This document shows positions 9,968 to 28,909 of a stretch of 39,832 bases of DNA, piece after piece. The position numbers and the translations under genes were made by a program. The DNA is from an uncultured Clostridium sp. (lineage in GTDB: Bacteria > Bacillota > Clostridia > Lachnospirales > Lachnospiraceae), in the NCBI GenBank assembly GCA_945917985.1, contig CAMEIH010000023.1:1-39832 (forward strand), read 5' to 3'. The notes under the pieces were generated by a model. The model saw nothing but the letters and a program-made list of their open reading frames with translations. It did not search any database and was not told the DNA's origin. Each line of letters starts with the position of its first letter. Positions within the stretch are counted from its first letter, which is position 1.

Positions 9968-10801
9968 ATGGACGAGATCAGAATTGAGAATCTGGAAATT
10001 TATGCCGGACATGGCGTGTTTGAGGATGAAAACAGGCTGGGACAGCCCTTTTTTGTTGACATTATCCTATATACAGATACGAGAGCTGCGGGAGAGAGAG
10101 ATGATCTGAGTTTATCTACTCACTATGGAGAGGTGTCTCATCTGGTAAACCGTTTTTTGAAGGAGCATACCTATAAGCTGATTGAAACTGCTGCCGAGAA
10201 AGCGGTGGAGCAGATTCTGCTCCATTTTCCTCTGGTGCAAAGCCTTGATCTGGAGATCAGAAAGCCCAAAGCACCCATAGGGCTTCCCTTCGGTTCCGTT
10301 TCCGTAAAGATTCATCGGGGATGGAAAAAGGCATATCTTGGCATCGGCTCCAATCTGGGAGATAAGGAAGCGTATATGGAGAATGCCGTTTCCAAATTAA
10401 AAGCAGATAAGAAAATAAGAGCGGTAAGGACATCTGACTGGATCGTGACGAAGCCCTACGGCGGTGTTGAGCAGGATGATTTCTTAAACGGCGCCATTTC
10501 TCTGGAAACCCTGTATTCTCCTTCGGAGCTTTTACATTTGCTGCAATCTGTCGAAAAAGAAGCGGGAAGAGAGCGGAAAATCCATTGGGGACCGAGAACC
10601 CTTGATCTTGACATTTTATTTTATGAGGATTTCATTTCTGATGAGGCAGAACTCATGGTGCCCCATCCCGATATGCAAAACCGGGAGTTTGTGCTAAGAC
10701 CTCTTGATCAGCTATGTCCCTATTATGAGCATCCCCTTTTACACAAAACCGTGAGACAGATGCTTAAGGAATTGGAAGAGAAGCCGGAACGAGAGCTTTA
10801 G
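9968..10801 (+). CDS. folK: FolB-FolK fusion: dihydroneopterin aldolase / HPPK
   Basis: Bifunctional 277-residue enzyme. Residues 1 to ~115 are a FolB dihydroneopterin aldolase (IENLEIYAGHGVFEDENRLGQPF, then ETAAEKAVEQILLHFP and the C-terminal KAPIGLPFGSVSVKI strand). From about residue 118 a HPPK domain starts with AYLGIGSNLGDKEAYM and carries the ATP and magnesium motif GPRTLDLDILFYED and the PHPDMQNREFVLRPL tail. It converts dihydroneopterin to the hydroxymethyl-dihydropterin and pyrophosphorylates it to supply FolP. FolB-FolK fusions are common in Firmicutes and other bacteria. GAGGG precedes the ATG, which is two bases after the folP stop, so translation is probably coupled. Confidence 0.95.
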   Translation: MDEIRIENLEIYAGHGVFEDENRLGQPFFVDIILYTDTRAAGERDDLSLSTHYGEVSHLVNRFLKEHTYKLIETAAEKAVEQILLHFPLVQSLDLEIRKPKAPIGLPFGSVSVKIHRGWKKAYLGIGSNLGDKEAYMENAVSKLKADKKIRAVRTSDWIVTKPYGGVEQDDFLNGAISLETLYSPSELLHLLQSVEKEAGRERKIHWGPRTLDLDILFYEDFISDEAELMVPHPDMQNREFVLRPLDQLCPYYEHPLLHKTVRQMLKELEEKPEREL

Positions 10802-14719: not shown

Positions 14720-16267
14720 ATGGCAGTGAAAACATTTGCGGCGATCGATGTGGGATCCTTTGAGATTTCCATGAAAATATTTCAGGTATCCAGAAAGGGC
14801 ATGAAGGAGATCGACCACATCAGACATGAGATCGACATGGGGACAGAGACTTACACTACGGGAAAGCTTTCCTATGAGCGTGTGGAGGAGCTTTGCCGGG
14901 TGCTTTGCGAGTTTTCAAATATCATGAAAACCTATCAGGTATGCGACTACAAGGCTTATGGAACCAGTGCTATCAGAGAAGCTGAGAATACTGCTATTCT
15001 GTTAAACCAGATCGAAGTGAGGACAGGTATTCATATTGATGTACTCAGTAACTCGGAGCAGAGATTTCTGGATTATAAATCCATCGCTTTTCAGGGAGAG
15101 GGATTTCTTAAGATTATTGAAAACGGAACAGCCATTGTGGATATTGGTGGCGGTAGCATTCAGATTTCTCTTTTTGATAAGGATACTCTTGTTTCCACCC
15201 AGAATATGCGGCTTGGCGTACTGCGCCTCCAGGAGAGACTGAATCATTTGAATGCAAGCTTGAATCAGTATGATAATCTCATTGAAGAGCTGGTGGATTC
15301 CCAACTTCAGGTATACAAAAAGCTATATTTGAGGGAGCGGGAAATCAAAAATATTATTGTTGTGGATGACTATATCTCTGTTATGTTGAGAAAAAAGAGC
15401 GATAATCATGAGATGACCGGTTATGCCGGCAAGGAACTTTTTGACCACTTTGAGAAGGCATATCATACAAAGAGCGTTTCCCAGCTGGCCAAAAGCTGGG
15501 ATATGCCGGAGGAAAATATGCCGATGGCCCACATTTCCGTGATGATGCTGAAGAGAATCATGGAGACCATGGGAGCAGAGCTGATCTGGGCGCCGGGTGT
15601 TACTTTGTGCGATGGCATCGCATATGAGTATGCGGAAAAGAATAAGATGATAACAGCCTCCCATGATTTTGAACAGGATATCATTGCCTGTGCAAAGAAT
15701 ATCAGCAAGCGGTATCGGGGAAGCAGAAAGAGAAGCGAGACTCTTGAGCAGATCGCACTTACCATTTTTGACAGTACCAAGAAGATCCATGGTCTCGGAA
15801 AGAGGGAAAGGCTGCTTTTACAGCTCTCCACAATCCTCCATGACTGCGGAAAGTATATCAGCATGGCGAATCTGGGAGAGTGCTCCTACAGCATTATCAT
15901 GTCTACGGAGGTGATTGGTCTGTCCCACAGGGAAAGAGAGATCGTAGCCAATGTGGTGAAGTATAATCATCTGGAGTTTGACTATTATGAGGAGATGGGA
16001 CTTCACAGCTCTTTAGACAAGAGCGCCTATCTGGTAGTGGCAAAGCTGACCGCGATTCTGCGTCTTGCCAACGGACTGGACAGAAGCCATAAACAGAAAT
16101 TTAAAAATGTAAGAACATCCTTAAAGGATAATGAGCTTGTCATCACGGTGGACACCAATGAGGATATTACTTTGGAAAAGGGACTTTTTGACGGAAGAGC
16201 AGCCTTTTTCCAGGAAGTATTTAATGTGCGTCCTGTCATCAGACAAAAGCGTGTGATTGGAGGTTGA
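14720..16267 (+). CDS. ppx: Ppx/GppA phosphatase with C-terminal HD domain
   Basis: 515-residue exopolyphosphatase or guanosine pentaphosphate phosphatase. The ASKHA N-terminus is AAIDVGSFEISMKI (Asp10), followed by YGTSAIREAEN and the phosphate-binding VDIGGGSIQISL near residue 139. A second half carries an HD domain, with HDCGK near residue 373 (ILHDCGKYISMANLGECSY) and HREREIVANVVKYNH. The long form (Ppx plus HD) is usual in Firmicutes and some Proteobacteria. Start ATG lies three bases after the DUF815 stop, indicating translational coupling, and the ppk gene overlaps or follows within five bases. Whether it acts on polyphosphate or pppGpp cannot be read from the sequence. Confidence 0.92.
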   Translation: MAVKTFAAIDVGSFEISMKIFQVSRKGMKEIDHIRHEIDMGTETYTTGKLSYERVEELCRVLCEFSNIMKTYQVCDYKAYGTSAIREAENTAILLNQIEVRTGIHIDVLSNSEQRFLDYKSIAFQGEGFLKIIENGTAIVDIGGGSIQISLFDKDTLVSTQNMRLGVLRLQERLNHLNASLNQYDNLIEELVDSQLQVYKKLYLREREIKNIIVVDDYISVMLRKKSDNHEMTGYAGKELFDHFEKAYHTKSVSQLAKSWDMPEENMPMAHISVMMLKRIMETMGAELIWAPGVTLCDGIAYEYAEKNKMITASHDFEQDIIACAKNISKRYRGSRKRSETLEQIALTIFDSTKKIHGLGKRERLLLQLSTILHDCGKYISMANLGECSYSIIMSTEVIGLSHREREIVANVVKYNHLEFDYYEEMGLHSSLDKSAYLVVAKLTAILRLANGLDRSHKQKFKNVRTSLKDNELVITVDTNEDITLEKGLFDGRAAFFQEVFNVRPVIRQKRVIGG

Positions 16268-16271
16268 AAGC

Positions 16272-18401
16272 ATGAGTGAAATAGATTATAAAGATCCCGG
16301 ATATTATACCAACCGGGAACTCAGCTGGGTCCTTTTTGATAAGAGAGTGCTCAGTGAGGCGAAGGATAAACAGAATCCTCTGTTTGAGAGACTGAAGTTT
16401 TTAAGTATTACGGCATCCAATCTGGATGAGTTCTTTATGGTGCGTGTGGCATCCTTAAAGGATATGGTGAATGCGGGGTATGAAAAGCCGGATATTGCCG
16501 GAATGACACCCGTGCAGCAACTTTCAGCGCTGAATGAGGCAACGCATGAGCTGGTAAAAGAGCAGTATGCCGTATATAATAAAACCCTGCTCCCGCTTCT
16601 TTTGCAAAACGGGCTCAGGGTCATTGGCAAACATGAGGATCTGACAGAAAGGGAAGCTGAGTATGTGGATCAGTATTATGAAGAAAATATTTATCCGGTA
16701 TTGACGCCCATGGCAGTGGATTCTTCAAGACCCTTTCCGCTGATCAGAAACAAATCTCTGAACATCGGTGCGTTGGTAAAGAAGAAAGGCGGAGACGGGG
16801 AACTGGAATTTGCAACCGTACAGGTGCCCAGTGTACTTCCGAGAATCGTGCAGATTCCCTCTGAAGATGAAGGGGAAACCGCAGTGATTCTTCTGGAAGA
16901 GGTTATTGAGAGAAATATCGAGAAGCTTTTCTTAAATTATGATATTGTCTGCTCTTATCCTTTCCGGATCATGAGAAATGCAGATTTTTCTCTGGAGGAG
17001 GACGAGGCGGAGGATCTTCTCAAGGAGATTGAAAAACAGCTGAAAATGAGACAGTGGGGTCAGGCCATCAGACTGGAGGTAGAAGAGGGCATTGACAAAA
17101 GGCTGATCGGTATCATCAAGAAGGAACTGTCCATCGGAGATGAGGATATTTATCGCATTGACGGTCCCTTAGATCTTACTTTCCTGATGAAGATGTATGG
17201 TCTTCCCGGGTTTGATCACCTGAAGGAGAAGGGGTATGCTTCCCCGCAGCCGGTGCCTGAGCTGCCGGAGGGCTGTGATATCTTTGAACAGATCAGGAAG
17301 GGGGATGTGCTTCTTCATCATCCTTATGAAACCTTTTCTCCTGTGGTGGAATTTATCAGGCAGGCGGCGCGGGATAAGGATGTGCTTGCCATCAAGCAGA
17401 CCCTGTACCGTGTCAGCGGAAATTCTCCCATTATTGCAGCTCTTGCCCAGGCAGCGGAGAATGGCAAACAGGTTTCTGTTCTTGTGGAGTTGAAGGCGAG
17501 ATTTGATGAGGAGAACAATATCGTCTGGGCAAAGATGCTGGAAAAAGCAGGCTGCCATGTTATCTATGGACTTGTGGGCCTTAAGACCCACAGCAAGATT
17601 ACCCTGGTAGTCAGAAGAGAGGAGGATGGCATCAGAAGATATGTCCATCTGGGCACGGGAAACTATAATGATGCCACGGCAAAGCTTTACACGGATATCG
17701 GGCTTTTGACCTGTTCTGAGGCTATCGGTGAGGATGCCACAGCAGTGTTTAACATGCTTTCCGGTTATTCCGAGCCTCTTGGATGGAATAAACTCTCCCT
17801 TGCACCCCTGTGGTTGAAAGACAGATTTTTATACCTCATTGACAGGGAAAAGAAAAATGCTGCCGCAGGAAGAGAAGGCCATATCATCGCAAAGGTGAAC
17901 AGTCTTTGTGACAAGGATATCATACAGGCTCTGTATGAGGCCGGGGCAGCGGGAGTTAAGATCGAACTGATCGTGCGCGGTATCTGCTGTCTGAAAACGG
18001 GACTTCCCGGCATCGGAAAGAATATAACAGTGCGTTCCATCGTGGGTAATTTTTTGGAACACTGCAGAATCTTTTATTTTGCCAATGATGGGAAACCGGA
18101 GTATTACTGTGCCAGTGCGGACTGGATGCCAAGAAACCTGGAACGCCGCGTGGAGATCATGTTCCCTGTGGAAAAGCCTGCACTCCGCGAAAAACTGATA
18201 CATATCCTTTCCATGCAGCTGAAGGATACAGTGAAAGCCCATGTCCTTTTGCCGAACGGAAGATATCAGAAGGTAGATAAGAGGGGCAAGGAAATCATCA
18301 ATGCTCAGCAGGAATTCTGCAAAGAAGCAGTGAGAGCGGCAAAGCAGAAGGACGAAGTGGTAAGCAACAGAGTGTTTATCCCTGAGACACATCATGAATA
18401 G
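16272..18401 (+). CDS. ppk: Polyphosphate kinase 1
   Basis: 709-residue PPK1 that makes inorganic polyphosphate from ATP through a phosphohistidine. The N-terminal domain begins YYTNRELSWVLFDKRVLSEA and FLSITASNLDEFFMVRVASLKDMV. The PLD-like catalytic domains contain DVLAIKQTLYRVSGNSP, ELKARFDEENNIVWAKMLEKAGCHVIYG, LKTHSKITLVVRRE (His ~440 is the expected phosphoacceptor), VHLGTGNYNDATAKLYTDIGLLT and NLERRVEIMFPVE. The ATG at 16272 has GGAGG eight bases upstream; the frame opens 15 bases earlier inside ppx. Neighbouring ppx makes a synthesis and degradation pair. Confidence 0.97.
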   Translation: MSEIDYKDPGYYTNRELSWVLFDKRVLSEAKDKQNPLFERLKFLSITASNLDEFFMVRVASLKDMVNAGYEKPDIAGMTPVQQLSALNEATHELVKEQYAVYNKTLLPLLLQNGLRVIGKHEDLTEREAEYVDQYYEENIYPVLTPMAVDSSRPFPLIRNKSLNIGALVKKKGGDGELEFATVQVPSVLPRIVQIPSEDEGETAVILLEEVIERNIEKLFLNYDIVCSYPFRIMRNADFSLEEDEAEDLLKEIEKQLKMRQWGQAIRLEVEEGIDKRLIGIIKKELSIGDEDIYRIDGPLDLTFLMKMYGLPGFDHLKEKGYASPQPVPELPEGCDIFEQIRKGDVLLHHPYETFSPVVEFIRQAARDKDVLAIKQTLYRVSGNSPIIAALAQAAENGKQVSVLVELKARFDEENNIVWAKMLEKAGCHVIYGLVGLKTHSKITLVVRREEDGIRRYVHLGTGNYNDATAKLYTDIGLLTCSEAIGEDATAVFNMLSGYSEPLGWNKLSLAPLWLKDRFLYLIDREKKNAAAGREGHIIAKVNSLCDKDIIQALYEAGAAGVKIELIVRGICCLKTGLPGIGKNITVRSIVGNFLEHCRIFYFANDGKPEYYCASADWMPRNLERRVEIMFPVEKPALREKLIHILSMQLKDTVKAHVLLPNGRYQKVDKRGKEIINAQQEFCKEAVRAAKQKDEVVSNRVFIPETHHE

Positions 18402-18411
18402 GGTGGAAAAA

Positions 18412-19020
18412 ATGGATAAAAAAATAATTCTGGCAAGTGCTTCTCCCAGAAGAAGAGAGCTGCTTGCCCAGATTGGTATGGATTTTGAGGTGCGGGCAAG
18501 CTGCGCCGAGGAAAAGACAGAGGCAAAGGAACCGGAAGAACTTGTAAAAGAATTATCTGCCCTGAAAGCCCTGGATATCTGGGAGAAGCTTTCCGGAGAG
18601 GAGAAGAAAAACAGTCTTGTGATCGGCGCTGACACTGTGGTAAGCGTCTGTGGCACTGTTACGGGAAAGCCGAAAGACAGGGAGGATGCAGCAGGGATGC
18701 TCTCCCTTTTACAGGGCAGAACCCATCAGGTATATACCGGAGTTACCTTTGTTTATCTCGATGAAAAGAGTGATATGGATATCGGCAGAAAGGCAGAACG
18801 CCGGGTAAACAGCTTTTTTGAGAAGACGGATGTACTTGTCTTTCCTATGTCGGAAGAGGAGATTGCACGCTATGTGGCTACGGGCGATCCCATGGATAAG
18901 GCAGGAGCTTACGGAATACAGGGAATATTTGCTGCTTATATCAAAGGGATAGCAGGAGACTACAACAATGTGGTAGGTCTGCCTGTAGGAAGATTGTATC
19001 AGGAATTAAAGAAGATTTAA
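18412..19020 (+). CDS. maf: Maf-family nucleoside triphosphate pyrophosphatase
   Basis: 202-residue house-cleaning dNTP/UTP pyrophosphatase of the Maf family. Signature segments are ILASASPRRRELL, EELVKELSALKA, LVIGADTVVSV, TGKPKDREDAAGML and the acidic YVATGDPMDKAGAYGIQG loop; the D-x-A-G-A-Y-G-I-Q-G motif identifies Maf (YhdE/YceF type). ATG at 18412 is preceded by GGGTGGA; a Met at 18394 overlapping ppk is the alternative. It ends the pheA-ppk run, just before a clear terminator. Maf genes often sit near mreB or radC in Firmicutes, so this placement with ppk is less usual. Role: removing modified nucleotides and cell-division control. Confidence 0.93.
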   Translation: MDKKIILASASPRRRELLAQIGMDFEVRASCAEEKTEAKEPEELVKELSALKALDIWEKLSGEEKKNSLVIGADTVVSVCGTVTGKPKDREDAAGMLSLLQGRTHQVYTGVTFVYLDEKSDMDIGRKAERRVNSFFEKTDVLVFPMSEEEIARYVATGDPMDKAGAYGIQGIFAAYIKGIAGDYNNVVGLPVGRLYQELKKI

Positions 19021-19230: not shown

Positions 19231-19247
19231 TTGTGCATAATGCACAA
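19231..19247. promoter_or_regulatory. 17-bp perfect palindrome
   Basis: TTGTGCATAATGCACAA is a perfect inverted repeat with a three-base centre (TTGTGCA TAA TGCACAA). A close copy, TTGCGCATAAAGCACAA, occurs at 19327-19343, differing at two of 17 positions. The pair may be a second operator class. Confidence 0.6.
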
Positions 19248-19318: not shown

Positions 19319-19353
19319 GCAAACGGTTGCGCATAAAGCACAACATGTTGCGC
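19319..19353. promoter_or_regulatory. Overlapping start-site operators
   Basis: Three interlocked palindromes lie just after the predicted start point: GCAAACGGTTGC (19319-19330), TTGCGCATAAAGCACAA (19327-19343) and GCACAACATGTTGCGC (19338-19353, one mismatch in 16). The arrangement suggests binding of one regulator in more than one register or of two regulators. Confidence 0.62.
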
Positions 19354-19411: not shown

Positions 19412-20752
19412 ATGAAAAAGAAATTGTTGGCATCATTGCTCACCCTTTCCATGGTAGCAGCTATGCTCACAGGCTGCGGTGGAGCAGCAAAAGAGGAAGC
19501 TCCCGCAGACACAACAGAAGCAGCAACAGAAGAAGCTGCACCTGCCGAAGAGGCAGAGACAACTGAAGCAGCAGAAAGCACAGTCGCTGCAGACCCCGTA
19601 GCTAACCTGATCGCAGCTACAACAGATACGGTATCCCTTACTGTATGGGCTTCTGAAGAAGACCAGACATTAACAACAGAACTGCTTGAGAAATTCAAAG
19701 CACAGTATCCCGATGTTACATTTGACATCAAGCTTGGTTCCGAATCTGAATCAACAGCTAAGGACACTGTCCTTACAGACGTAGAAGCAGCAGCAGATGT
19801 ATTCGCATTCGCTGATGACCAGATCAATGAACTGGTTGCAGCAGGAGCACTTCAGCCTGTATCCGCTACATACACCTATGATGTAGCCGGTGAGAACGTA
19901 GCAGGTGCTGTAGAAGCAGCTACCGTAAACGGAACCTTATATGCATATCCCATGACAGCTGATAACGGCTATTTCATGTTCTATGATGCATCCGTATTTA
20001 CAGAAGAAGATGTACAGTCTCTTGAGAAGATGATCGAAGTTGCAGGCGCAGCAGGCAAGAAGATCGGCATGGATGTTTCCAACGGCTGGTATATCTACTC
20101 CTTCTTCCAGGGCGCAGGCTATGACCTGACACTGAATGATGACGGTGTTACAAACTCCTGTACATGGAATGCTGACGGCGCTGTAGATGTTGCTCAGGCT
20201 ATCATGGATCTGTGCGCAACAGGCGTATTGGTAGATATGGGTGATGAAGAAATGGCTACAGCAATCGCTGAAGGTACTGTAGTTGCAGCTGTTAACGGTA
20301 CGAGGAGAGCAGAGACAGCATCAGATGCATGGCGCGAGAACTAGGCAGCAACCAAGCTTCCTACTTTCGAAGTTGCAGGCGAAGCTAAGCAGATGTCTTC
20401 TTACTCAGGTTATAAGTTAATCGGTGTTAACCCTTATTCCAAGAACGTTGGTTGGTCTATGCTGCTTGCTGAGTTCTTAACAAACGCTGAAGCTCAGGCA
20501 GCAAGATTTGAAGCAAGAGGCCTTGGCCCCGCTAACATCGAGGCAGCTTCAAGCCAGGCTGTTCAGGAAAATCCTGCAATTGCAGCACTTGCAGCTCAGG
20601 CAGCTTATGCAACACCTCAGCGTGTAGGCGGAAACTTCTGGACACCCGCTGAAACATTAGGTCAGATCCTTGCATCAGGCAATCCTGACGGAACAGATCT
20701 TCAGACACTGCTTGACACAACTGTAGAAGGAATCACAGCTCCTGTACAGTAG
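19412..20752 (+). pseudogene. Sugar ABC transporter substrate-binding lipoprotein, interrupted by an in-frame TAG
   Basis: Maltose-type extracellular binding protein whose frame is closed by TAG at 20342-20344 after 310 codons, and then continues in the same frame for 135 codons to the natural stop (446 codons in all). The N-terminus is a lipoprotein signal with lipobox LTGC (Cys22), followed by a Thr/Glu/Ala-rich linker. Family segments are TVSLTVWASEEDQTLTTE, AADVFAFADDQINELV, LYAYPMTADNGYFMFYD before the stop, and YKLIGVNPYSKNVGWSMLLAEFLTNAEAQAARF after it. Four odd codons sit close together just before and at the stop (20299-20344). Either a nonsense mutation, an assembly error, or regulated read-through; a fragment starting near 20393 is unlikely to be exported. 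Confidence 0.85.
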
Positions 20753-20949: not shown

Positions 20950-22377
20950 ATGAAGAAGATATTAAATTCAATTGGAAATTATTTCAAAGAGTTTGGTACC
21001 GCTGTTGCCAAAGGTGATATCTGGGTGAAACTGTCCCTGATCTGGATGGGAGCAGGATATATTGCCAGAAAGCAGATCATCAACGGTATCATTATGACTT
21101 TGCTGGAAGCAGTTTTTGCGATTATGTGCGTAGGATATGCAGCACCCAATCTGGCAAAGTTTGGTACGCTTGGTACAGTTCAGTTTGAACAGGTATTCGA
21201 CCCGTTAACATTGACAAGTACAGTGAATGATTATGACAATTCATTCCTTATCTTATTAAATTCCATTATTTCATTATTCCTGATTGTGGTATTTGTCATT
21301 GTATATATTGCGAATGTCAAGACTGTTTATCGTCTTCAGCAGTCGAAGGAAAACGGAAGACACATTAATAACTTCCGGGAAGACATCCGTGCATTGTTTA
21401 ATGAGAAGTTTCACATTACTCTGCTTACACTTCCCTGTATCGGTGTTGTTCTGATGAACATTCTTCCGATTCTGGTGCTGATCGCGGTGGCATTTACCAA
21501 TTATGATCAGCAGCATATGCCGCCAAGTGCGCTGTTTACCTGGGTGGGCTTTAAGAACTTTAAATCACTGTTTACCAATTCCACCACCATAACGTTTGGA
21601 TATTCCTTTGGCAAGATTCTGATATGGACACTGGAATGGGCTGTGCTTGCAACCTTTACAACCTATATCGGCGGTATTTTGCTTGCCAAGTTCATTAACA
21701 ATAAAGCGACCAAATGGCCTAAATTCTGGAGAACTCTGTTTATCATTGCAATTGCAGTTCCTCAGTTTGTCACACTGCTTTTGGTCCGCAACTTCTTTGC
21801 AGATTCCGGTATTGTCAACACGATCTGCGCCAATATCGGTTTGACGGATTTCCTTAAGAAAATAGGTCTGGTGGCATCTCATCTTACCTACATTCCGTTT
21901 TTGACTGATCCTAACTGGGCAAAATTTATGATCGTGATCATCAACATCTGGGTTGGTGTTCCCTATCAGATGCTGATTGCAACAGGCGTTCTTATGAATA
22001 TTCCGGAGGATCAGATTGAAAGTGCCAGAATTGACGGTGCGAACAGTTTTCAGATCTTCGCAAAAATCACAATGCCGTATATGCTGTTTGTGACAGGACC
22101 GGCACTAATCACTGACTTTGTAAAGAATATCAATAACTTTAATGTCATCTATCTGTTGACTCAGGATGTGTTTGTAACCTCGGACCAGATGCTTGCGAAC
22201 TCCAATGCCAAGGAGGTAGACCTTTTGGTAACCTGGCTGTTCAGACTGACCAATGAATATTATAACTATAAGATGGCTTCGGTAATCGGTATTTTTGTAT
22301 TTGTTATCTGTGCAGCATTTACACTCATTACCTTTACCAGAACGATTAAAGGAGATAAGGAGGATCAGTTTAGATAA
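20950..22377 (+). CDS. Sugar ABC transporter permease, MalF/GanP type
   Basis: 475-residue inner-membrane permease of the carbohydrate uptake-1 family. After a soluble N-terminus it has an early hydrophobic segment (IIMTLLEAVFAIMCVGYAA), a second one (FLILLNSIISLFLIVVFVIVYIA), a cytoplasmic stretch, and the conserved binding-protein-dependent transport core. The EAA loop, contacting the ATPase, is IPEDQIESARIDGANSFQIFAKITMPYM. The long N-terminal part is like MalF and GanP. The gene overlaps the next permease by one base (TAATGA). No ATPase gene lies nearby, so the pair probably relies on a shared MsmX/UgpC-type ATPase encoded elsewhere (known for Bacillus sugar importers). Confidence 0.94.
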   Translation: MKKILNSIGNYFKEFGTAVAKGDIWVKLSLIWMGAGYIARKQIINGIIMTLLEAVFAIMCVGYAAPNLAKFGTLGTVQFEQVFDPLTLTSTVNDYDNSFLILLNSIISLFLIVVFVIVYIANVKTVYRLQQSKENGRHINNFREDIRALFNEKFHITLLTLPCIGVVLMNILPILVLIAVAFTNYDQQHMPPSALFTWVGFKNFKSLFTNSTTITFGYSFGKILIWTLEWAVLATFTTYIGGILLAKFINNKATKWPKFWRTLFIIAIAVPQFVTLLLVRNFFADSGIVNTICANIGLTDFLKKIGLVASHLTYIPFLTDPNWAKFMIVIINIWVGVPYQMLIATGVLMNIPEDQIESARIDGANSFQIFAKITMPYMLFVTGPALITDFVKNINNFNVIYLLTQDVFVTSDQMLANSNAKEVDLLVTWLFRLTNEYYNYKMASVIGIFVFVICAAFTLITFTRTIKGDKEDQFR

Positions 22378-23219
22378 TGAAAAAACAAGTGAGATTTGTG
22401 TTAAGACATGTAGTTTTATTATTACTCGCCGTAATATGGCTGGTTCCCATTGTCTGGCTGGTTGTGACTTCATTTAGTGGATATAAGGGAATCAACACGG
22501 CACACTTTTTCCCTCAGACATGGTCTCTTGACAATTATATCACCTTATTCTTAAAACCTGACTCCGTAGTACAGTACAAGGCGTGGTTTACCAATACTCT
22601 TGTGATTGCAATCTTTACCTGCATTATTTCTACGATTCTGGTATTGATGGTAGCTTATACCATGAGCTGCCTGCGGTTTAAAGGAAGAAAGGGACTGATG
22701 AGCTTCAGCATCATTCTGAATATGTTCCCCGGCGTTTTATCCATGATCGCAGTGTACTTTATTTTAAAGTCTCTGGGACTGACCAACAGCCATGTGGGTA
22801 TGATTATTGTATATTCTGCAGGTGCGGGCCTTGGATTTTTAATTGCAAAAGGATTCATGGACACGATTTCTGTTTCCTTGAGGGAGGCAGCAAGGCTGGA
22901 GGGGGCTTCTGAAGCCCAGATATTCTGGAAAATTGTGATCCCGCTTTCCAAACCGATTATCGTTTATACGGTTATCAGTTCTTTCCTGGTACCCTGGGGA
23001 GACTTCGTGTTTGCAAAGCTGATTCTGAATTCAGGCATCTCACAGGATTGGACAGTTGCGATCGGCCTTTACAATATGTTGAATAAATCCCTGATCAATA
23101 AATACTTCTCTATCTTCTGCGCAGGTGGTGTTGTGGTGTCCATCCCCATTTCCATTCTGTTTGTGATCATGCAGAAATTCTATGTAGAGGGTATTACAGG
23201 AGGATCTGTGAAGGGTTAA
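22377..23219 (+). CDS. Sugar ABC transporter permease, MalG/GanQ type
   Basis: 280-residue partner permease. The N-terminal helix is HVVLLLLAVIWLVPIVWLVVTSF, and further segments are FTNTLVIAIFTCIISTILVLMVAYTMS, ISFSIILNMFPGVLSMIAVYFIL-like and the end helices. The EAA loop SLREAARLEGASEAQIFWKIVIPLSKPI is canonical. It ends with YVEGITGGSVKG, the C-terminal tail typical of MalG and GanQ proteins that reaches the transporter interface. Translation is coupled to the upstream permease through the one-base stop-start overlap, so a one-to-one heterodimer is expected. The LacI gene starts two bases after the stop. Confidence 0.94.
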   Translation: MKKQVRFVLRHVVLLLLAVIWLVPIVWLVVTSFSGYKGINTAHFFPQTWSLDNYITLFLKPDSVVQYKAWFTNTLVIAIFTCIISTILVLMVAYTMSCLRFKGRKGLMSFSIILNMFPGVLSMIAVYFILKSLGLTNSHVGMIIVYSAGAGLGFLIAKGFMDTISVSLREAARLEGASEAQIFWKIVIPLSKPIIVYTVISSFLVPWGDFVFAKLILNSGISQDWTVAIGLYNMLNKSLINKYFSIFCAGGVVVSIPISILFVIMQKFYVEGITGGSVKG

Positions 23220-23220
23220 A

Positions 23221-24222
23221 ATGGAAGTAAAAAAAATGACAATTGATGATATAGCAAGAGACCTTGGAATCTCAAAGACTACAGTTTCAAGAGCTATTTC
23301 AGGAAAAGGAAGGATCGGGCAGGAAACCAGAGACAGAGTACTCCGGTACATCGAGGAAAATAATTACAGACCAAGTGCGATTGCCAAAGGTCTTGCCCAG
23401 TCCAAAACCTTTAATATTGCCTTTGTCATGCCGGGAGATTACAGTAATGCCGATCTGCCGTTCTTTCAGAAATGTATGTGGGGGATCAGCATTATGGCTT
23501 CGCGAAGGGATTATGATGTTATCATTTCCATGGTGGATGAGGGAAACCTCTCCCAGCTTGTGAGAATGATAGATCATCATAAGATTGATGGTGTGATTCT
23601 GTCAAGAACCCTTGAAAAGGATGAAGTGGCATCGTATCTGATGACTGGAAATGTGCCCTTCGTCACGGTAGGATCTGCAGAGGAAGATTCCATTATTCAA
23701 GTAGATAATGATCATTTCGGCGCCTGCAGAGAATTGACCAGTATTCTTCTGCACAAGGGAATCAGGAAAATAGCGCTGATTGGCGGCGGTACCAACGTGA
23801 TCGTAAATCAGAAAAGACTTCTCGGTTTCAGAGAGGCCTATATGCAGGCTGGTATTCCTGTTGATAACAGCCTTTTATATCTTGATATTGAAAATACAGG
23901 AAGAATAGAAGGTATTGTAGAGGAGATACTTGCCAAAAATGCAGACTGTATTGTCTGTATGGATGATTTTATCTGTAGCTATGTATTAAACAAGCTGGAT
24001 AAGGATCATATTAAGATACCGGAAGAAATTAAAGTGGCATCCTTTTATAACAGCAGTTTTTTGGAGCAGCATCAGCCTGCCATAACGGAACTGAAGTTTG
24101 ATGTATCCGAGCTTGGCATGGTATGCTGCAACACTTTACTGGATCATATCGACAAAAAAGAGGTAAAGCAGAAGACACTGCTGGGTTATGAGGTATTGAT
24201 AAAGGAATCCACCAAAAATTAA
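23221..24222 (+). CDS. LacI-family transcriptional regulator
   Basis: 333-residue sugar-responsive repressor. The N-terminal helix-turn-helix is MTIDDIARDLGISKTTVSRAISGKGRI and the hinge helix is YRPSAIAKGLAQSKT. The periplasmic-binding-protein-like effector domain follows, with IAFVMPGDY, IDGVILSR, PFVTVGSAEEDSIIQVDNDHFGACRELTSILLHKGIRKIALIGGGTN and CIVCMDDFICSYVLNKL. Its sites are probably the GCAAACGGTTGC-type palindromes in the leader at 19159 and 19319, as LacI members bind near-palindromes centred on CG; this is inference. Being inside its own operon suggests autoregulation. GanR of Bacillus (galactan) is a LacI-family analogue. Confidence 0.93.
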   Translation: MEVKKMTIDDIARDLGISKTTVSRAISGKGRIGQETRDRVLRYIEENNYRPSAIAKGLAQSKTFNIAFVMPGDYSNADLPFFQKCMWGISIMASRRDYDVIISMVDEGNLSQLVRMIDHHKIDGVILSRTLEKDEVASYLMTGNVPFVTVGSAEEDSIIQVDNDHFGACRELTSILLHKGIRKIALIGGGTNVIVNQKRLLGFREAYMQAGIPVDNSLLYLDIENTGRIEGIVEEILAKNADCIVCMDDFICSYVLNKLDKDHIKIPEEIKVASFYNSSFLEQHQPAITELKFDVSELGMVCCNTLLDHIDKKEVKQKTLLGYEVLIKESTKN

Positions 24223-24243
24223 ATGGATATGAGGAGAAAGATA

Positions 24244-26097
24244 ATGGATAAGTTTATTGTCAACATCATTCATCGCCCGGAGATGGTTCCCGAGTACGCG
24301 GAAAAAGTAACCGGACATGGAAAAGAAGAGAATATCGGCAGAAAGTCACTGCTTACTGAGTCTCTTGATATTTTCAGGTTTCAGCAGGAGACAGCGCATA
24401 AGAATGGTCTGAAAACAACCATTCAAATGACCTACGCCAGCCTCTTTAATGAAGAAGCAATCGCTATTGCAAAGGAAGATCATGAGAAGTACGGTGATGA
24501 GATTGCTCTTTCCCTTTTGGGATTGCCCTGTGAGGAGTTTAGAGAGAAATATAAGACAAAAGACTTCTGTATCTGGATGTTCTCTATGGAGGACAAGAAG
24601 TCGATCGTGGACGACGTGTTTGGAAAGTTCCATGATATTTTCGGCTTTTATCCTGAATCGACAGGTTCCTATTACATGGATGCAGAGCTGGTCAACTACA
24701 TCAAGGAAAAATATCCCATGGTAAAGTGTGCGGTAGCTACCTGTTGGGAGGAAGGCCCTAAGGCTTATCACACCTGTAACAATTCCTGGTATACACTGAT
24801 GGATGGCGGTCCATGGAATCCATGGATCCCGAGCAAACAGAATATCCACGCACCTGCAGCAAATGAAGCTGAGGACAGTGGTATCGTAGCCATTCCTCAT
24901 CTTTCCAGAGATCTGCTGGCTTGCTATGACGGAAACGGCTCCAACTTCGGAACCCATCCCCAAAATGTGCTTCGCGGTATGATTTATGATACAAAGACAT
25001 GGGAGTACCCTTATCTATACAACCTTATTGATCAGTATCGCGATCTTGAAAAGTATAATAACGGATATGCTTACAACATGATGTTTGTAGGACCCGGCTG
25101 GCTGAATAAGATGGGACGCTGGGAAGCACCCTATGAACTTCTTAAGAAATCTTATGAGGACGGTATGGCTTACTATGGACAGTTGAAGAAGGAAGGCAAG
25201 CTTACCGATATGACTATGGCTGAGTTTGCAGATTACTTCCGCCAGAAAAAGACATATACGGAGCCGGAATGTGCACTCTGGAGAGATATCCTTTACGGTT
25301 CCGACAAGCAGCTGTTCTGGTACTGTGACCCTTATATGAGAGCCTGTATCAACATGAATCAGGGCGGTGCTATCGTGGATCTTCGACCTTATGCTGCAAA
25401 GCTGAAATGGGAGGTTGGTATCGGAACACCGCATGTACAGGATGCTTCTTATCCTTTCCTGATCCAGGAGAAGTACAGAGCCGGATACTTCACTCACTAT
25501 GCTGGTGAAGGTACCGTGAGAAGTGCAAAACTGACCTATAACGGAGAGGAAGTAGATCTTTGCCTTTGCCGTACCCATGCAAAGTTCAGCGAAGAAGTAA
25601 TCGAGGATGGAAAGAAAAAGAGGATCCTCACGCTGGAGCCTGTAGATATTGAATTCTATGATCTGACCGTTAAGCTTCAGACAAGAGTGATCTTTACGGA
25701 AGGCAGCTCAGACATTGAGATGGAAAGAACAGTTCTTTCCATGAGCAATCCCGATGCAGTGGTAGATCTGAATGAGTATATCGTGGCATGCTACGGTACA
25801 ACAGAATATCCTGAGGATATGACAAGCCTTACATTGACCTGCAAGGGCAAGAGCGAAGAGAAAAAGATTGATTATGCATATAAGTGCAGGGAAGCAGAAA
25901 TAGAAGGAGCCGATTCTGTAGAGGCAGTGATCCCTCCTATCGAGACAAAGGTTTCCATGAGGACAAGCGATGAGAAGGCTACAGGCTACATCAGAGAAGG
26001 CTATGCATTCTCACCTATGTTTACATTGGGATATAAAACGACACTGAAGGATAAGGAGGTTGTTTCCACATGGCTCAAGCTGGAAAAGGCAAATTAA
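24244..26097 (+). CDS. Uncharacterised 617-residue protein, possible NodB/GH-like barrel (DUF3863/3864-like)
   Basis: Large soluble protein with no signal peptide. The N-terminal half looks like a (beta/alpha) barrel of the polysaccharide-deacetylase or alpha-mannosidase-like type: VNIIHRPEMVPEYAEKV, FQQETAHKNGLKTTIQMTYA, DIFGFYPESTGSYYMDAE, VKCAVATCWEEGPKAYHTC, DGGPWNPWIPSKQN and IPHLSRDLLACYD. The C-terminal third is beta-rich with VDLCLCRTHAKFSEEV and IEFYDLTVKLQTRVIF. From memory this resembles DUF3863/DUF3864, which have no known activity. ATG 24244 is preferred over 24223 because GAGGAG precedes it. It is part of the sugar operon and ends inside the start of the next gene. I cannot assign an activity. 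Confidence 0.72.
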   Translation: MDKFIVNIIHRPEMVPEYAEKVTGHGKEENIGRKSLLTESLDIFRFQQETAHKNGLKTTIQMTYASLFNEEAIAIAKEDHEKYGDEIALSLLGLPCEEFREKYKTKDFCIWMFSMEDKKSIVDDVFGKFHDIFGFYPESTGSYYMDAELVNYIKEKYPMVKCAVATCWEEGPKAYHTCNNSWYTLMDGGPWNPWIPSKQNIHAPAANEAEDSGIVAIPHLSRDLLACYDGNGSNFGTHPQNVLRGMIYDTKTWEYPYLYNLIDQYRDLEKYNNGYAYNMMFVGPGWLNKMGRWEAPYELLKKSYEDGMAYYGQLKKEGKLTDMTMAEFADYFRQKKTYTEPECALWRDILYGSDKQLFWYCDPYMRACINMNQGGAIVDLRPYAAKLKWEVGIGTPHVQDASYPFLIQEKYRAGYFTHYAGEGTVRSAKLTYNGEEVDLCLCRTHAKFSEEVIEDGKKKRILTLEPVDIEFYDLTVKLQTRVIFTEGSSDIEMERTVLSMSNPDAVVDLNEYIVACYGTTEYPEDMTSLTLTCKGKSEEKKIDYAYKCREAEIEGADSVEAVIPPIETKVSMRTSDEKATGYIREGYAFSPMFTLGYKTTLKDKEVVSTWLKLEKAN

Positions 26098-26288
26098 ATT
26101 TCAGATGTCCCTCCTGTTTTATGAGGGATCTGGACATTGATATGTTCTACGATAAAGACAAGAAGGAATATTACTGTATGCGTTGTCAGTATGTCGGAAC
26201 CGAGGAGGATGTACTGGAAAAGAATGAGATGGTAAGGTTCCGCTATAAGGATATGTACAAGCGTTTTACAAAATTTGATTTTGATTAA
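26070..26288 (+). CDS. Zinc-ribbon microprotein
   Basis: 72-residue protein beginning MAQAGKGKLNFRCPSC. It has two C-x2-C knuckles, CPSC (residues 13-16) and CMRC (36-39), about 20 residues apart, the layout of a zinc ribbon, followed by a charged helix and FRYKDMYKRFTKFDFD. It overlaps the upstream gene's last 28 bases in another frame and has a strong AAGGAGG about ten bases before the ATG, so the start is well supported despite the overlap. Such small ribbons may bind RNA, DNA or a partner enzyme. The family is not known to me. Its placement between an unknown protein and a GH53 enzyme makes a role within the sugar locus likely but unproven. Confidence 0.78.
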   Translation: MAQAGKGKLNFRCPSCFMRDLDIDMFYDKDKKEYYCMRCQYVGTEEDVLEKNEMVRFRYKDMYKRFTKFDFD

Positions 26289-26296
26289 TGTACCGG

Positions 26297-26332
26297 CAAT
26301 GTTCGTGGCTGCAATAGCGGTCACGGACATTG
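26297..26332 (+). other. Intercistronic hairpin before the GH53 gene
   Basis: A 12-bp stem with two wobble pairs (CAATGTTCGTGG at 26297-26308, TCACGGACATTG at 26321-26332) and a 12-base loop, starting nine bases after the zinc-ribbon stop. No T tract follows, so an mRNA-processing or translation-control element is likelier than a terminator. Confidence 0.55.
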
Positions 26333-26379
26333 TGCTATACGGACAGATGTGCAGTGGAAGGAAAGGCAAGGATACTGAT

Positions 26380-27519
26380 ATGAAATATTATAAAGGAATG
26401 GATATCTCTACCCTGCTTGAGGTAGAAAAATGCGGCGGTAAATTTTATGACGGAAAGGGTGCTGAGGATGCACTTGACATTTTAAAGCGCTATGATGTGA
26501 ATGCTGTGCGTATCCGTCTTTGGAATGATCCCTATTCTGAGGATGGGGAGCCTTACGGTGCTGGGACAAACGATTTTGCATCGGTTATTGCACTTTCAAG
26601 AAGAGCAAGAGAAAAGGGCTTTGATATTCTGCTTGATTATCATTACAGCGATTTCTGGGCGGATCCCGGCAAACAGTTTATCCCAAAGGCGTGGAGAGGG
26701 TATTCGGTGGAGGAACTGGAGCAGGCGGTCTATAATTACACGAAGGATACACTGCTGGATTTAAAGGAGCAGGGACTTCTTCCCAATATGGTTCAGGTGG
26801 GGAATGAGTTGACAAACGGACTGCTCTGGCCTTACGGAAAGGTACCTGATTATGACAATATCGCCCGCTTTGTCAATGCAGGGATCAGAGCAGTCAAAGA
26901 AGTGTCGGAAACAGCCCTTGCAGACGGAAGCGTATCGGAACGGATCCTGATTATGATTCACCTTGATAATGGTGGAAACAATGCGCTTTACAGAGAATGG
27001 TTCGATCACTTTGTAAAGAGAGGGGAGGATTTTGATATCATAGGTCTTTCCTACTATCCTTTCTGGCATGGTACCTTTGATATGCTGCAGAACAATATGA
27101 AGGATATTGCAAAGCGCTTTGGCAAGGAACTGATCATTGCGGAAGTATCTATGGGATATACCATGGAAGATTATGCTTCCTATGAAAAACTCACGCCTTC
27201 CCAGAGAAAAGGGATGGCTACCAGACAGGAGCTTGTCGACAAGATAGAGTATCCCATGACCAAGGAAGGCCAGAAGGCGTTCCTGGAAGAGCTTTTTAAA
27301 AGACTTGAGGAAATCCCGGATAGGAAAGCGAGAGGATATTTTTACTGGGAGCCTGCCTGGATTCCGGTGCCCGGAAGCGGCTGGGCTACGGAAAGCGCGT
27401 TAAAATATATTGAGGATAAAGGACCTTGTGGAAACGAATGGGCGAATCAGGCATTGTTCGATTACGATGGAAATGCCCTTCCTGCCCTTACAGCAGTAAG
27501 GGATTACAGACCGGAATAA
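26380..27519 (+). CDS. GH53 arabinogalactan endo-beta-1,4-galactanase, apparently intracellular
   Basis: 379-residue glycoside hydrolase family 53 enzyme, a clan GH-A TIM barrel that cleaves beta-1,4-galactan. It starts YYKGMDISTLLEVEKCGGKFYDG, typical of the family, and continues with VRIRLWNDPYS, LLDYHYSDFWADPGKQFIPKAW, the acid/base Glu143 in VQVGNELTNGLLWP, IGLSYYPFWHGT and the nucleophile Glu255 in IIAEVSMGYT. No signal peptide precedes the family start. The 35 extra codons upstream begin with TTG inside the previous gene and lack a ribosome binding site, so they were left out. It therefore probably acts on oligosaccharides brought in by the neighbouring transporter. It is the last gene of the operon. 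Confidence 0.93.
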   Translation: MKYYKGMDISTLLEVEKCGGKFYDGKGAEDALDILKRYDVNAVRIRLWNDPYSEDGEPYGAGTNDFASVIALSRRAREKGFDILLDYHYSDFWADPGKQFIPKAWRGYSVEELEQAVYNYTKDTLLDLKEQGLLPNMVQVGNELTNGLLWPYGKVPDYDNIARFVNAGIRAVKEVSETALADGSVSERILIMIHLDNGGNNALYREWFDHFVKRGEDFDIIGLSYYPFWHGTFDMLQNNMKDIAKRFGKELIIAEVSMGYTMEDYASYEKLTPSQRKGMATRQELVDKIEYPMTKEGQKAFLEELFKRLEEIPDRKARGYFYWEPAWIPVPGSGWATESALKYIEDKGPCGNEWANQALFDYDGNALPALTAVRDYRPE

Positions 27520-28291: not shown

Positions 28292-28909
28292 ATGAGTGAC
28301 AAAATCATTGTTCAATATTTAGAAAGTATATCCGGGCGAATAGACACAATGTCTACAGAGATCAGCGATATCAAGCATGATGTTCAAATCATTGATGAGA
28401 AAGTGGAGAAACTGTCAGCGCGGATTGATGATGTAGAAGAGAAACTGTCGGCGCGGATTGATGATGTAGAAGAGAGATTATCGGCGCGGATTGACAAATT
28501 GGAAATACGGGTCGATGAACTGGAAGAGAAACTGTCGGCGCGGATTGATGATGTAGAAGAGAGACTATCAGTGCGGATCAATGAAGTGGAAGAGAGATTA
28601 TCAGCGCGGATTGATGATGTAGAAGAGAGATTATCAGCAAGAATCAATGAAGTGGAAGACACACTGAATGAAAAGATTGATCTTGTGGAGAAGGCTTTGG
28701 ATACAGAAATTGATAATGTTTACAAGATTGCCTGTGAAAATAAGCAGAATATTGAACTTCTGTTGATTCCTTTTAACGACAGAAATTTGTATGTGAGTGC
28801 CGAGGTATCCAAAATTCCACAATTGGATGAACGTCTTGATGAGGTGGAAGATAAGATTGGTCAACATAGTGAGGAAATTCGAAAACTGAAAACTGCTTTA
28901 GCAGTGTAG
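28292..28909 (+). CDS. Hendecad-repeat coiled-coil protein
   Basis: 205-residue, almost wholly helical protein. Between residues ~39 and 133 it is a run of near-identical 11-residue units of the form E-K/R-L-S-A-R-I-D/N-D/E-V-E, seven good copies and one divergent, interrupted once by a heptad IRVDELE after the third copy. Eleven-residue periodicity gives a coiled coil with little supercoil, often forming long tetramers or fibres. The flanks (ESISGRIDTMSTEISDIKHDV and AEVSKIPQLDERLDEVEDKIGQHSEEIRKLK) also predict coiled coil. No membrane segment or enzyme motif. It sits alone between its own promoter and terminator. The function is unknown; such proteins act as scaffolds or tail-fibre-like spacers. 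Confidence 0.75.
   Translation: MSDKIIVQYLESISGRIDTMSTEISDIKHDVQIIDEKVEKLSARIDDVEEKLSARIDDVEERLSARIDKLEIRVDELEEKLSARIDDVEERLSVRINEVEERLSARIDDVEERLSARINEVEDTLNEKIDLVEKALDTEIDNVYKIACENKQNIELLLIPFNDRNLYVSAEVSKIPQLDERLDEVEDKIGQHSEEIRKLKTALAV
28406..28690 (+). repeat. 33-bp tandem repeats inside the coiled-coil gene
   Basis: Eight 33-bp units begin at 28406, 28439, 28472, 28526, 28559, 28592, 28625 and 28658, with one 21-bp (heptad) insertion at 28505-28525. Units 1, 2 and 4 are nearly identical at DNA level; the last is diverged. Copy number could change by slippage. Confidence 0.85.

Follow-up and report, generated by a model that had tools for sequence, protein, structure and literature searches.

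The stretch of DNA analysed here, referred to as the window, is an entire contig (C23) of 39,832 bp from G000, a draft genome of an uncultured gut bacterium of the Lachnospiraceae. At 19412-20752 on the plus strand it contains an ordinary gene for a CUT1-type sugar-binding lipoprotein, the receptor of an ATP-binding cassette (ABC) importer, which lies in a probable galactan operon and is interrupted by an in-frame TAG.

The interrupted receptor gene

The 5' part of the gene (19412-20344, plus strand) is open up to the internal TAG at 20342-20344 and encodes 310 amino acids (aa), in which the Pfam families SBP_bac_8 and SBP_bac_1 are both found above their cut-offs. The SBP_bac_8 profile gives 66.3 bits for this part against a cut-off of 27, and the intact sister protein reaches 113.5 bits. 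The stop stands directly after ...GTRRAETASDAWREN, and it is the only one within the frame. Downstream of it the protein sequence goes on as AATKLPT... with no frame shift, and this remainder (20345-20752, plus strand, 135 aa) is conserved and has its own terminal TAG at 20750-20752. An earlier note on this DNA had described the frame as intact on both sides of the stop, which is indeed what is seen, i.e. one frame runs from 19412 to 20752 but does not give a complete protein, the break being at 20342-20344.

The stop is the last codon of a patch of 43 bp (20302-20344, plus strand) that contains five bases found only in the window (20302, 20303, 20333, 20335 and 20344). In this patch two near-invariant residues are changed to Arg, both of them within the 14 codons before the TAG.

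Conservation and clustering of the changes

The nearest relatives over the 310 receptor residues are G003, G016 and G011 (96%, 92% and 83% identity, respectively), all three of them metagenome-assembled genomes (MAGs). The receptor alignment consists of 93 rows, i.e. 80 loci and 13 others, with at least three genomes present twice. The column of the first Arg is W in all 93 rows, that of the second is G in 92 (one K), and the position of the stop is Y in 85 (F in 5, L in 2 and A in 1), so that the replacement of Trp, Gly and Tyr by Arg, Arg and a stop, which the earlier note had expected from family patterns, could be confirmed. The Trp position is presumably that of the ligand-stacking Trp of E. 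coli MalE. According to the earlier note, relatives with a natural end at the same place would speak against its reading; in the alignment none of the 93 rows terminates at the TAG position and all of them continue beyond it.

At columns conserved to at least 80%, the two Arg are the sole residues of the window receptor that no relative shows. The neighbourhood was examined at a threshold of 90% in the seven stretches with at least 55 homologs, i.e. both halves of the receptor and five neighbouring genes, and no window-private break of a strongly conserved column was found in the five neighbouring genes. Beyond the patch two residues were flagged, one each in the LacI and GH53 genes (see below), and both are common to G003. 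The receptor of G003 itself has one private never-seen residue in 137 conserved columns.

It is the kind of the changes that is odd, not their number. The receptor gene has 28 bases that are private to the window relative to three relatives, and the mismatches between the window and G003 range from 0 to 6 per 45-bp bin near the patch, the two bins of the patch itself having 3 and 5. The presence of three gene-breaking codons inside 14 of the 445 has a probability of about 0.0025, with no others in the gene, and the clustering proposed earlier is upheld in this sense. The five patch changes are 2 silent, 2 missense and 1 stop. All possible single changes in the patch codons amount to 28 silent, 98 missense and 9 stop, and the observed mix fits random substitution; the background between the window genome and G003 is 1271 replacement vs 4422 silent codon differences.

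Selection on both sides of the stop

Between the window and G003, the ratio of nonsynonymous to synonymous substitution rates (dN/dS) comes to 0.082 over codons 1-294 and to 0.034 over codons 312-446. Purifying selection is thus apparent on both sides of the stop, and there is no lesion outside the patch. A long-standing pseudogene was rejected on these grounds, in agreement with the earlier note, which had argued against old decay.

The intact and conserved frame past the stop is also what one would expect if the TAG were read through and the protein made in full length, as the earlier note had suggested as a second possibility. This part of the note found no support. TAG terminates 107 of the 456 sampled open reading frames (ORFs) of at least 250 aa, i.e. 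it is an ordinary stop with no sign of avoidance, and the receptor gene itself also terminates in TAG. PylS scored 24.9 bits at best, its cut-off being 178, and no CTA anticodon was seen among the 34 tRNAs read, which are an incomplete set (34 of 36 Rfam hits were read, tRNAs for Ala, His, Ile and Tyr are missing from these, and the genome is incomplete). Moreover, read-through leaves the two Arg substitutions unexplained, and we consider it very improbable.

Search for a donor of the patch

No second copy of the patch was found in its own genome, where the search returned, besides the patch itself, six matches, 14 to 30 bases long, at expect (E) values of 0.04 to 3.4. An exact 14-base match on contig C67 covers two of the changed bases, which is at chance level. 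With up to three mismatches the patch occurs in one of 37 genus genomes, namely the window genome itself, and in none of the 36 others. A template switch was looked for within 1.5 kb: no exact match of at least 10 bases covers a changed base, and there is one match of 9 bases. Since no donor was found in its own genome or in the 36 other genus genomes, a donor or gene conversion was rejected as the origin of the patch.

The same result bears on programmed diversification, either by a diversity-generating retroelement or by conversion from a donor cassette. The changes do form a short cluster in the gene of a surface protein, but the residues affected hardly vary among relatives and hence do not belong to a variable region. 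In addition, none of the five changed sites of the patch is a coding-strand adenine in all three nearest relatives; the search did not extend to a reverse transcriptase. Together with the missing donor this makes programmed diversification the least credible of the explanations discussed here.

Comparison with the sister genome and the probable cause of the lesion

G000 has 2.92 Mb in 111 contigs and is 88.5% complete with 3.3% contamination; like its three nearest relatives, it is presumably a MAG. Samples of 0.84 Mb from G000 and 0.95 Mb from G003 were compared, which gave 40 blocks with 227,389 aligned bases and a mean identity of 94.7%. The projection of 156 G003 genes on G000 left 135 that were checked for stops, and in the reverse direction 137 of 158 genes were checked. 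Frame-shifting gaps led to the omission of 8 (G003 on G000) and 10 (reverse) genes for internal gaps, and of 13 and 11 for gaps near the ends.

Two mid-gene stops in convincing genes were found among the 135 genes checked in G000, i.e. the receptor TAG and a lone TGA in a gene for a glycoside hydrolase family 36 (GH36) alpha-galactosidase (L222, G000:C21, aligned to L183:4530-6719). The TGA is at codon 436 of 730, and the gene is elsewhere nearly identical to its G003 counterpart. No mid-gene stop was found in the 137 genes checked in G003. Several other rows with stops were set aside, namely, in G000, a 374-aa ORF with an extra 5' part before the start of the window ORF (nitroreductase), an ORF antisense to a DUF815 gene (two stops), and stops at codon 402 of 406 and codon 3 of 222; and, in G003, stops at codon 275 of 278 (next to which there are two further radical changes) and codon 4 of 179. 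Moreover, three or more radical changes within 15 codons are seen in the receptor and in no other convincing G000 gene; the one further G000 row of this kind spans the nitroreductase start codon, and the one G003 row is at a gene end.

We suggest that a short stretch of wrong consensus in the draft assembly gave rise to the TAG and to both Arg codons, a reading to which we assign a probability of about 0.64. A local consensus error would account for the kind of changes and for their clustering, and also for the neighbours being undisturbed and for the other lone stop, in the GH36 gene. Thin coverage could have allowed an error-rich read end to set the consensus at the patch, and the receptor gene of the cell itself would then be intact.

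The serious rival to a consensus error is a very recent real mutation, that is, a true loss of function in the sampled strain, by one or a few mutational events that left three damaging changes in 43 bp. There would have been no time yet for decay in the rest of the receptor gene, and the importer would be without its receptor. The second galactoside gene with a fresh internal stop, GH36, can be read in favour of this possibility as well, and a precedent is known from the inulin locus of the gut Firmicute Roseburia faecis M72/1, where a nonsense single-nucleotide polymorphism (SNP) in a permease gene of a sugar ABC importer was confirmed by Sanger sequencing (PMC5320581). On the other hand, the later hits of a dead gene are expected anywhere and not as three in 14 codons, and neither a template for conversion or template switching within 1.5 kb nor a second copy in the genome was found. 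We regard recent loss as possible but less likely than an error.

Several observations, the Roseburia precedent among them, weigh against a consensus error. It is by inference that we place the cause in the sequence data. The number of changes is unremarkable, at least five of the 28 private changes falling within some 43-bp stretch with a probability of about 0.18 in random draws. Among the 135 G000 genes checked, no other patch of clustered changes turned up in a convincing gene. In 14 near-identical genes (5565 codons) there are 27 replacement and 43 silent codon differences from G003, so that the general error rate looks low, a point that also favours recent loss. Finally, G003 has lesions of its own, i.e. 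a 1-base frameshift in one gene (reference L165:6667-7524), where the G003 frame is the shorter, and three radical changes clustered with a stop at an extreme gene end (reference window 9968-10801). Such lesions are therefore not peculiar to the assembly of the window. The frameshift in particular weakens the contrast between the two assemblies, and our confidence in an error was reduced from 0.68 to 0.64 for this reason.

Apart from the net internal frameshift of 1 base at L165:6667-7524 (G000-side reference), further net internal frameshifts were listed near a gene end at L222:7727-8620 (G000-side reference) and at L169:3952-5694 (L177:309-2039 from the G003 side). A scan for dense mismatches returned ten windows in otherwise similar DNA; the receptor patch is not among them.

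If the patch is an error, then gene loss that is called from one draft consensus may be false, and residues never seen in relatives can serve as a cheap warning where they adjoin a stop. Should the patch be true, we see a fresh loss of the receptor of a sugar importer, with Roseburia as the precedent.

Split receptors in related genomes

Of 397 family genomes, 31 contain genes related to the receptor at E values up to 1e-80, and among the 31 matches listed there is no internal stop, all being in open frames of at least 409 residues. A different kind of interruption is present in the syntenic receptor (gene order ppk, maf, receptor, permease) of two sister species, G008 and G019, which have a run of eight G in common. 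With this run the reading frame of the receptor is lost after codon 119 in G008 (L191, G008:C1:396000-400500, minus strand) and after codon 113 in G019 (L025, G019:C56:84787-88224, minus strand), and seven G would preserve the frame. Behind the shift dN/dS is 0.076 at a dS of 0.26, i.e. purifying selection is strong. The motif could be found in 18 of 25 related loci read at this site, and none of the 18 has this G run. The assembly of G008 includes a contig of 1.47 Mb.

Judged from the sequences, the run of eight G may be regarded as a candidate site for phase variation of a sugar receptor, or for slippage while the receptor is expressed; a homopolymer error common to both assemblies is another possible explanation. 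The frameshift looks more interesting than the TAG of the window, and could offer a way to test whether sugar receptors of gut Lachnospiraceae undergo phase variation. One may go further and consider the receptor next to ppk and maf as a recurrent off-switch point in the genus, with a real recent stop in the window and a slippery tract of eight G in G008 and G019, behind which the frame is preserved. We hold this broader view to be improbable.

Another sugar-binding protein gene, at L024 (G010:C19:19013-22615, minus strand), lies in two frames and is split near residue 102.

The operon neighbourhood

The receptor gene is placed after ppk and maf (16257-19020) and is followed, all on the plus strand, by open frames for a MalF-like ABC permease (20950-22377), a MalG-like ABC permease (22377-23219), a LacI-family regulator (23221-24222) and a conserved 624-aa protein with no Pfam or NCBIfam family (24223-26097), and then by the gene for a glycoside hydrolase family 53 (GH53) endo-beta-1,4-galactanase (26275-27519; Pfam PF07745, E 2.6e-118). 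The GH53 gene, together with a GanS match that stays below its cut-off, points to an oligosaccharide of galactan or arabinogalactan as the probable substrate. In its predicted structure the 624-aa protein seems to resemble a NodB/GH57-like barrel with a mutarotase-like beta-sandwich, which we state with modest confidence, the model having a mean pLDDT (predicted local distance difference test) of 66.5 with 195 residues below 50.

A perfect 17-bp palindrome (TTGTGCATAATGCACAA) is located at 19231-19247, and a second copy with two mismatches at 19327-19343, both upstream of the receptor gene. With up to three mismatches the palindrome was found upstream in 8 of 79 loci and in 0 of 79 in shuffled sequence. 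It is a possible candidate for the operator of the LacI regulator at 23221-24222. Farther downstream, the region 28391-28666 of the window contains short repeats with several overlapping matches to one 175-base piece of G003; these repeats sit inside a coiled-coil-like ORF (28292-28909).

Comparison with known systems

In the intact sister protein, residues 86-421 can be aligned with PDB entry 4ua8, which is named as a CUT1-family binding protein (E 9.1e-48). The window copy differs from CUT1-type solute-binding proteins (SBP_bac_8) in being broken after residue 310. The top NCBIfam match of the intact sister protein is the galactooligosaccharide-binding protein GanS (NF053763), with 89.1 bits against an equivalog cut-off of 700, so that by this measure the protein does not belong to GanS. 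The likeness to GanS extends to the GH53 galactanase gene downstream of the receptor in the same direction; the window operon differs in that it includes one protein without a named family.

With the inulin locus of Roseburia faecis M72/1 (PMC5320581) the window shares an internal stop in one component of the ABC importer of a carbohydrate locus. In Roseburia this is one SNP confirmed by Sanger sequencing, whereas in the window there are three clustered damaging codons, as yet unconfirmed, in a draft assembly.
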